DNA from: Parietichytrium sp. I65-24A
Taxonomy: Eukaryota; Sar; Bigyra; Thraustochytrida; Thraustochytriidae
Assembly: GCA_012862575.1 (NCBI GenBank)
Contig: BLSF01000008.1
Coordinates: forward strand, 124,001-188,000
Reading direction: 5' to 3'
Length of the DNA stretch: 64,000 nt
Shown here in pieces: positions 20,143-22,365 of this stretch. Both the position numbers and the translations under genes were made by a program. Each line of letters begins with the position of its first letter. Position 1 is the stretch's first letter. A model generated the notes under the pieces. The model searched no databases. It had not been told where the DNA came from and was given only the letters and a program-made list of their open reading frames with translations.

Positions 20143-22092
20143 TTACAACTTGCTCTGGCCCTCAGCGAGAACACCGATCTCCATGTCTGGGCCAAACTTG
20201 GCGAGCAACTCTGGCTTGTGGAGCATGTCGAACTCCTTGGTGGCATCCTTGCCTCCGTAAAGGAGGATTGCCTTTGCACCACCAGGATGCTCCTCCAAAA
20301 AGTCAGTCACATCGTAGACCTTGTTGTGGAGGATGACCCAGCAGTCTCCCTTCTTGGTGTGCTTGGAAACCTCCTCCATGGAGTAGGACTTCGCGCCGCC
20401 AGACTTTGCAGCTGGAGCGGAGCCAGTCTCCTTCACGCCCTGAGCGTAGAAGGCAGCGTTAGGGTCCATTTCAGCTGGACCGTCATCCGCTGGGATGTCG
20501 CTTGCGCCATCTGCCTTGGAACCAGAGGATGCGCCCCAGGAGATGACCACAGACTTGTCAGATGGGTTGACCTTGATGTTGACACCAGCTGCGCTTCCTC
20601 CAGCGACAGCACCCTCTCCGTTACTGAGCTTGTCGAGCAAGTAGCGAGTAGCGCTGCGGCCAGCTACGCGGCCGTAGACGACGCAGTCCAAGAGAGAAGA
20701 TCCTCCGAGACGGTTGACTCCGTGAACTCCTCCCTGTGCCTCTCCGGCAACGTAGAGGCCAGCAATTGGGGCCTTGTCCTTGGTGATTACCTCGGCGTCC
20801 TTGCTTGCAGCGACACCTCCCATGCAGTAGTGGATCACAGGGGTGATCTCTGCAACGTGGTAGTTGTCGTTCGCCATAACTGGGGTGGCCTCAAAGAACT
20901 TCTTGTCGAACTTGTCCTTTGCCTTGCCCTCAGCAGCGAGGTTGTACTGGTCAAACTCCTTCTGGAGGTCGCTCTGGGAGACACCGCATGCCTTTGCCAG
21001 TTCTGCGCCAGTCATCTTCTTCATGAGACCACGGCCAACGTAGTGCTCGCAGTGCCACGAGATGAGGTCAGCGGCCTTGGTGTTGAGGCAGAGCCTGTAT
21101 GGTGGCTTGCCGTGGAGCCACATGCGTCCAGTAACGTAGTCACGTTTGCCGAGCTCATCGCAGAAGCGCTTGCCCTCGCGATCGAGGATCACAGCACCAG
21201 ATCCACGGAGAGCCTCAGCGGCAAGGAACTTGACCTTTGCATCTGGCTCCTCAGGGTCAATAAGACCAGTTGGATGAACCTGGACGCAGTGAAGGTCGTA
21301 GGTGTCAGCGCCTGCCTTGAGAGCGAGCTTGATACCGTCACCAGAGCAGTGAACTCCGTTGGTGGTTGGGAGGGAAAGAAGGTTTGGGCTAGGGACCTTC
21401 TTGCCGTTGCTCTGCTTTGCAGCGCGGGAAGTGGTGCTCCATGCTCCGAGCTTGTCCCACTCTGCAGAGACCTGGGAGAGCAGAGAGTCGTCAGTAAAGT
21501 CAGCACCGAATCCACCAGTGCAGATGACGACAGGTCCATACTCGGTGTAGGTCTTGCCTCCCTTCTCGAACTTGCAGCCAATGACTTCTCCCTTGTCGTT
21601 CTGCACGAGCTCGGTCACGGTTGCCTTGTTGACAACGCGAGCCTTGTCGGACTTGGCGGCGATCTCATCGAGCTTCTCCATGAGGCCGTAGGTGATAGCC
21701 ATGCCAGGGAAGCGCTCCTTGCCACGGTGGGTGCGAGGCTGTGAGTGAGCAGCGAGGCGAGCCACGATGGAGAGGTCCAAGTTGAAAGAGTCGATGAGCC
21801 ACTCGACAGCTGGGCCGGACTCGTGCGTGAGCACCTTGATCAAGTCAGGGCGTGCGAGCTCCATTGCGGATGTGGTGGTGTCATTCTCAAAGATCTCTGG
21901 TGTGTCTGGGATTCCAAGTTTACGCTGGGTGCGGGTTCCGGCGGCGTTGATTCCACTGGTTGCCTTGGTCGAGTTTCCTCCGCAGAATGGGCTCTTGTCG
22001 AGCAACAGCACGCGGCCTCCGTTCTGCAATACTGTGTGGGCTGCCGACATGCCGGACAGCCCTCCTCCAACCACGATAATCTGCTGGGTCAT
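20143..22092 (-). CDS. Soluble fumarate reductase with C-terminal cytochrome b5 domain and PTS1 signal
   Basis: A 649-residue flavoprotein resembling yeast Frd1/Osm1 and the NADH-fumarate reductases of kinetoplastids. It would reduce fumarate to succinate and so reoxidise reduced cofactor without oxygen. Residues 5-30 form the FAD dinucleotide site (IIVVGGGLSGMSAAHTVLQ). The FAD_binding_2 domain continues to ~485 with VVICTGGFGADF, VQVHPTGL, GLYVAGEAQGGVHG and RLGGSSLLDCVV. A Gly/Ser/Ala-rich linker follows. Residues ~575-645 are a cytochrome b5 domain with the haem histidine in EEHPGG and the second in DMLHKPE. The C-terminus is SKL, a canonical PTS1. There is no N-terminal presequence, because the GGG motif begins at residue 8. 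Single exon; the ATG at 22092 is the first in frame. Confidence 0.92.
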   Translation of the reverse strand: MTQQIIVVGGGLSGMSAAHTVLQNGGRVLLLDKSPFCGGNSTKATSGINAAGTRTQRKLGIPDTPEIFENDTTTSAMELARPDLIKVLTHESGPAVEWLIDSFNLDLSIVARLAAHSQPRTHRGKERFPGMAITYGLMEKLDEIAAKSDKARVVNKATVTELVQNDKGEVIGCKFEKGGKTYTEYGPVVICTGGFGADFTDDSLLSQVSAEWDKLGAWSTTSRAAKQSNGKKVPSPNLLSLPTTNGVHCSGDGIKLALKAGADTYDLHCVQVHPTGLIDPEEPDAKVKFLAAEALRGSGAVILDREGKRFCDELGKRDYVTGRMWLHGKPPYRLCLNTKAADLISWHCEHYVGRGLMKKMTGAELAKACGVSQSDLQKEFDQYNLAAEGKAKDKFDKKFFEATPVMANDNYHVAEITPVIHYCMGGVAASKDAEVITKDKAPIAGLYVAGEAQGGVHGVNRLGGSSLLDCVVYGRVAGRSATRYLLDKLSNGEGAVAGGSAAGVNIKVNPSDKSVVISWGASSGSKADGASDIPADDGPAEMDPNAAFYAQGVKETGSAPAAKSGGAKSYSMEEVSKHTKKGDCWVILHNKVYDVTDFLEEHPGGAKAILLYGGKDATKEFDMLHKPELLAKFGPDMEIGVLAEGQSKL

Positions 22093-22365
22093 CTTTCCTC
22101 GCTACTTTTGGCCTCTCGAGCTCTCTGCTGCGCTGCAACGTCTCTGCGTTTCCGCGTCTCTGCGTTTGGGGTCTGCCTGCGCCACAATCTTCTAGCATCT
22201 CCCTCCCCTCCCATCTCCGCCGTCTCCTAACTCCCAGCGCAACTCCTAATGTTTATCCCTAATAACTACACCGCCTGCTACGCTCTTTTTAAGCCAGCCG
22301 CGGTTGGAAATCCATTGCCCAAGCGAGCAACTAGGGTTAATTATGACGTACGTAAGACCACGTCG

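Follow-up and report, generated by a model that had tools for sequence, protein, structure and literature searches.

A 64,000-nucleotide stretch of Parietichytrium sp. I65-24A DNA (the window) encodes a protein in which a soluble fumarate reductase (FRD), a cytochrome b5 and a C-terminal SKL tripeptide are joined in one chain, raising two questions: in which compartment does this FRD-b5 fusion work, and from where does it draw its electrons? All three elements had been claimed in the initial annotation and are borne out by Pfam matches and by the terminal codons of the gene (Table 1). The HPGG motif and His-625 were positioned by manual residue count; we take the HPGG histidine as a candidate haem ligand and His-625 as the second candidate. 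We interpret an antisense ORF of 508 residues (20218-21744, forward strand) as a shadow of the FRD-b5 coding strand. The AlphaFold model, based on seven sequences, has a mean pLDDT of 61.4, with low confidence at residues 495-585 and most of the b5 part below 65, and none of our conclusions depends on it. A Pfam scan of 17 flanking ORFs across the window (1-64000) revealed no metabolic cluster around the gene; four of them gave no match, and the neighbours with matches, namely ABC transporters, condensin subunit 2, RNase PH, a NAT10-type acetyltransferase, NIPA, a sulfate permease and C2 and FYVE proteins, appear unrelated.

Table 1. Features of the FRD-b5 gene (positions in the window) and of other genes of the genome (positions by locus).
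Feature	Position	Strand	Basis or remark
FRD-b5 whole gene: fumarate reductase-cytochrome b5 fusion, 649 aa, single ORF	20143..22092	-	Translation and Pfam; no internal stop
FAD_binding_2 (soluble fumarate reductase) domain, residues 5-467	20692..22080	-	Pfam, E 2.6e-64
Linker, residues 468-570, second half of low complexity	20383..20691	-	Gap between Pfam matches
Cyt-b5 domain, residues 571-642, with HPGG 602-605 and His-625	20167..20382	-	Pfam, E 1.6e-24
C-terminal SKL, canonical PTS1	20146..20154	-	Codons AGC AAG TTG TAA = SKL-stop
In-frame TAG, four codons 5' of the ATG	22102..22104	-	Open frame of 652 aa
C101 ApbE-FRD-b5 reductase fusion, 1162 aa counted from the presumed start Met, without PTS1	L022 2308-5796	-	
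C27 predicted ERO1-FRD-b5 fusion, 1088 aa, one 84-bp intron	L021 1628-4412 + 4497-4978	+	
Two adjacent similar b5-acyl-CoA dehydrogenase genes, AKL	L027, matches at G000:C17:93669-93881 and 96965-97177		Genome profile searches
C105 free b5, 99 aa after splicing, ends SKL	L050	-	
C12 P450-b5 fusion, ends AKL	L036 1483-3216, continued in L077	-	
Second P450-b5 fusion, without PTS1	L038 1501-3216	-	
ABM domain and weak b5 domain in one frame, ends PKL	L058 940-1890	+	
ORF resembling a short-chain dehydrogenase, ends SKL	L004 126-1256	+	Own reading
FAD_binding_2 protein ending SKI, adjoining the preceding opposite-strand ORF	L004 1432-3153	-	

The solved structure closest to the fusion is yeast Osm1 (PDB 5glg; E 4.4e-87), followed by the Shewanella flavocytochromes c, and the chain scores 218.4 bits with FAD_binding_2 (cut-off 20.4, Pfam) and 355.5 bits with the flavocytochrome c model TIGR01813 (cut-off 285.45, NCBIfam). 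His-273, Glu-293, Arg-296, Arg-317, His-421 and Arg-461 align with flavocytochrome c 1d4d and are invariant across the three soluble FRDs of the genome; we assume for them the catalytic roles assigned in work on flavocytochrome c3. Compared with the two paralogues, the fusion has an insertion at residues 209-234, and Osm1 is also shorter in this region. Among prokaryotic relatives, a contig scan with the FRD part alone as query identified five loci, the best at 33% identity. By sequence, FRD-b5 is thus probably a soluble Osm1/Frd1-type enzyme that would use fumarate as its substrate. That a peroxisomal protein with a b5 inlet instead reduces another enoate is improbable: the fold is common to urocanate reductase and further enoate reductases, which do occur among the matches, but Osm1 is far closer than urocanate reductase (E 4.4e-87 versus 1.5e-41), and the active-site stretch KFLAAEALRG is identical in Osm1 and the fusion.

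The SKL terminus falls within the canonical PTS1 pattern, defined here as C-terminal [SAC][KRH][LM]. Given the fusion's own composition, SKL would occur at its end by chance with a probability of ~4.6e-4 and any end of this pattern with ~2.9e-3. The genome searched (42.5 Mb in 172 contigs) contains three Pex2/Pex12-type matches and a PEX5 frame on C80, which was located with a peptide query and matches PEX5 chains at E ~1e-53; its top match is an engineered TPR protein, as would be expected of repeats. Acyl-CoA oxidases, included as a positive control, gave four matches, and the three ends read were SKL, SRL and CKL. Non-canonical ends were found for fumarase (SPKDK), the malate dehydrogenases (FCNK and RSSL), the C25 acyl-CoA dehydrogenase (KLD) and the other two soluble FRDs (YSQE and IGSL). 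Gene ends were generally taken from frame ends, without transcripts, and for multi-exon genes the two differ. At the N-terminus, the FRD-b5 protein begins at the Rossmann strand (MTQQIIVVGGGLSG); together with the in-frame TAG before the ATG, this start indicates that no N-terminal signal is encoded in this exon, and an unseen 5' exon may exist. A mitochondrial or ER form was rejected, as the exon lacks an N-terminal extension.

The peroxisomal version of the enzyme envisaged in the initial annotation is therefore well supported at the sequence level by the SKL, PEX5 and the tagged acyl-CoA oxidases; import by PEX5 through the PTS1 is plausible, and the fusion is probably peroxisomal. We consider it unlikely that the protein is mainly cytosolic, with a weak, hidden or accidental SKL, and acts there as a b5-dependent FRD supplied by the free b5 of C1, which has no tag. 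The latter is the nearest b5 in the genome, but a chance SKL is rare, the genome encodes a PTS1 receptor and tagged enzymes, and the untagged C101 paralogue already resembles a cytosolic NADH-type enzyme.

Comparison with known systems places the fused haem domain in context. In Shewanella flavocytochrome c (PDB 1d4d and 1qjd), the flavoprotein is fed by a fused haem domain, as would be the case in FRD-b5; the Shewanella domain is a multihaem cytochrome c at the N-terminus, in contrast to the single C-terminal b5 here. Yeast Osm1/Frd1 (5glg) has the FRD domain and active-site residues in common with FRD-b5. Osm1 is without a haem domain (PMC6242907) and is placed in the ER or mitochondria, whereas the present protein has a fused b5 and SKL; Pichia pastoris Osm1 ends in HKL, with a PTS1 score in the 'twilight zone' (PMC4580311). 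The kind of protein is not new, since the proteome of the Penicillium chrysogenum microbody matrix is reported to include an FRD-b5 fusion, Pc12g03090 (Kiel 2009, cited by PMC7348727). The two are alike in carrying FRD and b5 in one chain, FRD-b5 also having SKL and a PEX5 in the genome, and differ in that Pc12g03090 is fungal; the comparison is by description only. The kinetoplastid FRDg is likewise a fumarate reductase that ends in a PTS1 and resides in an organelle of the peroxisome type, but has ApbE and b5 reductase domains (PMC8065229), whereas FRD-b5 has neither and carries a b5 instead. That architecture is matched in our genome by the C101 paralogue, which is without PTS1. The C101 N-terminus, MADGVSKGS, is similar to the trypanosomatid flavinylation motif D3(g/s)x(s/t)(s/g)AS9 given in PMC8065229, departing from it at positions 7 and 8. 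In Diplonema, three FRDs are predicted to be mitochondrial, cytosolic and glycosomal (PMC8611851).

We propose that PEX5 imports the soluble Osm1/Frd1-type FRD-b5 into peroxisomes, where the fused C-terminal b5 would be the electron inlet: one-electron carriers would reduce the b5 haem, which would pass electrons to this chain's own FAD and from there to fumarate, yielding succinate. We judge it highly probable that the protein is a peroxisomal fumarate reductase that takes in electrons through b5. The order from haem to FAD to fumarate is suggested by analogy with flavocytochrome c and with the kinetoplastid enzyme (PMC8065229). The earlier suggestion that electrons arrive through b5 and not directly from NADH remains reasonable, as Pfam identified neither an ApbE nor a b5 reductase domain in the fusion and both in the C101 paralogue. 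Direct NADH oxidation by the FRD-b5 chain was rejected, there being no NAD-binding reductase domain of the b5 reductase type.

NADH could still supply the electrons through a partner. The fused b5 would then be reduced by an NADH-b5 reductase inside the peroxisome or at its surface, and fumarate would reoxidise NADH as in the glycosomal succinic branch, a reading that we regard as possible, if tentative. It is favoured by the fact that b5 reductases usually have b5 domains as partners. A genome search with FAD_binding_6 (PF00970) returned 17 matches, which fall at 12 gene loci, the nitrate reductase-type protein on C11 and the C101 FRD included, and a canonical PTS1 was found at none of the 12, which counts against this route. 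The C63 reductase ends in GRL, and PTS2-like strings occur in the C9 and C63 frames; a peroxisomal reductase may therefore exist. The GRL fits a relaxed PTS1 pattern similar to the one applied to kinetoplastids in PMC8611851, and in the kinetoplastid glycosomal enzyme the b5 reductase domain is required for NADH-FRD activity (PMC8065229). As to the PTS2-like strings, the one in C63 precedes the first Met and that in C9 lies 28 residues past it, again weighing against the NADH route. Neither of the two malate dehydrogenase matches carries a canonical PTS1, and no fumarate source with such a signal was seen among the fumarase and two malate dehydrogenases read; with these ends, a glycosome-like succinic branch was rejected. 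NADH reoxidation by fumarate inside peroxisomes, to which a peroxisomal version had been thought to point, thus finds no support in the 12 FAD_binding_6 loci, and the NADH route was lowered from its place as the leading reading.

A different set of partners emerged from the cytochrome b5 domains of the genome. PF00173 gave 41 matches, some genes giving two, and 30 were cut out as loci. Canonical PTS1 signals stand at six frame ends among the 30 loci read, namely those of FRD-b5 (SKL), C117 (AKL), the two C17 copies (AKL), C12 (AKL) and C105 (SKL); a seventh tagged gene, the b5-acyl-CoA dehydrogenase of C103, ends in AKL once its downstream exon is read. The b5-acyl-CoA dehydrogenases, defined as places where b5 and Acyl-CoA_dh_M both match within one frame, number four (C117, C103 and the C17 pair), and all four end in AKL. 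hmmscan was also run on C117 and C103, the C17 pair being based on two genome searches. They are four among 25 Acyl-CoA_dh_M matches, the other ends read being those of C25 and the oxidases only. Read from its first Met, the C12 P450-b5 fusion has, by our own inspection, no evident membrane anchor. A tree was built from 23 of the 41 b5 matches, three of which had been assembled by hand; in it, FRD-b5, the C1 free b5 and the four b5-acyl-CoA dehydrogenases form a clade with moderate support (SH-aLRT 91, UFBoot 84), in which the C1 protein, without PTS1, is nearest to FRD-b5 (69% over 45 residues). The C105 free b5-SKL falls outside this clade and pairs weakly with C12 (69/77), and the b5 of the ERO1 fusion is placed elsewhere, without support.

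The likeliest donors to FRD-b5 would accordingly be sought among the PTS1-tagged b5-acyl-CoA dehydrogenases, passing electrons from b5 to b5 directly or, alternatively, via a small b5 such as that of C105. Fumarate would then accept acyl-CoA electrons without H2O2, alongside the ordinary acyl-CoA oxidases. The donor is perhaps acyl-CoA: because the genome has tagged b5-acyl-CoA dehydrogenases and no b5 reductase with a canonical tag was found, we rank acyl-CoA electrons above NADH, though not by much. The acyl-CoA oxidases in the same genome argue against the dehydrogenases as main donor, since their presence means that the dehydrogenases may not be the principal route, and so do the untagged state of C1, the nearest b5, and the position of the C105 b5-SKL outside the FRD-b5 clade. 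The non-canonical ends of the fumarase and malate dehydrogenases read, as candidate fumarate sources, count against the proposal too. For a peroxisomal fumarate reductase with a b5 inlet and acyl-CoA dehydrogenases as its main donor, jointly, we estimate a probability of roughly 0.42.

The C27 paralogue may add a second compartment. Its order is a hydrophobic, signal-peptide-like N-terminal stretch (own reading), ERO1 (E 1.9e-80), FRD and then b5, so that ERO1 and FRD lie in one predicted chain; the genome search gave no ERO1 match besides this one. For the yeast proteins, Osm1 is reported to accept electrons from Ero1 (PMC6242907). Within the accessible text of the open-access literature searched, we found no description of an ERO1-FRD fusion or of a peroxisomal link from acyl-CoA dehydrogenase through b5 to FRD. 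FRD-b5 stands out for the surrounding set of PTS1-tagged b5 enzymes and the ERO1 fusion in its genome, which makes it worth following. A wider and more doubtful picture would be a peroxisomal b5 network in which the four AKL-tagged b5-acyl-CoA dehydrogenases send electrons via b5 to FRD-b5 (SKL), and perhaps also to the P450-b5 fusion (AKL), fumarate acting as a terminal acceptor for peroxisomal fatty-acid oxidation that requires no O2. The peroxisome (FRD-b5), the ER (ERO1-FRD-b5, coupling disulfide formation to fumarate in one polypeptide) and the cytosol (ApbE-FRD-b5 reductase) would each have a fumarate outlet of their own.

To our knowledge, the electron path from peroxisomal acyl-CoA dehydrogenases onward is unsettled. 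Rhodosporidium requires peroxisomal acyl-CoA dehydrogenases to grow on certain fatty acids (PMC5922974). The ERO1-FRD-b5 fusion would represent, in a single chain, a natural equivalent of the Ero1-to-Osm1 electron transfer shown for the yeast proteins (PMC6242907). For the acyl-CoA dehydrogenases, a set of b5 proteins that carry PTS1 and deliver to fumarate offers a concrete and testable answer to where their electrons go; if true, peroxisomal oxidation would not have to rely on O2 or generate H2O2.
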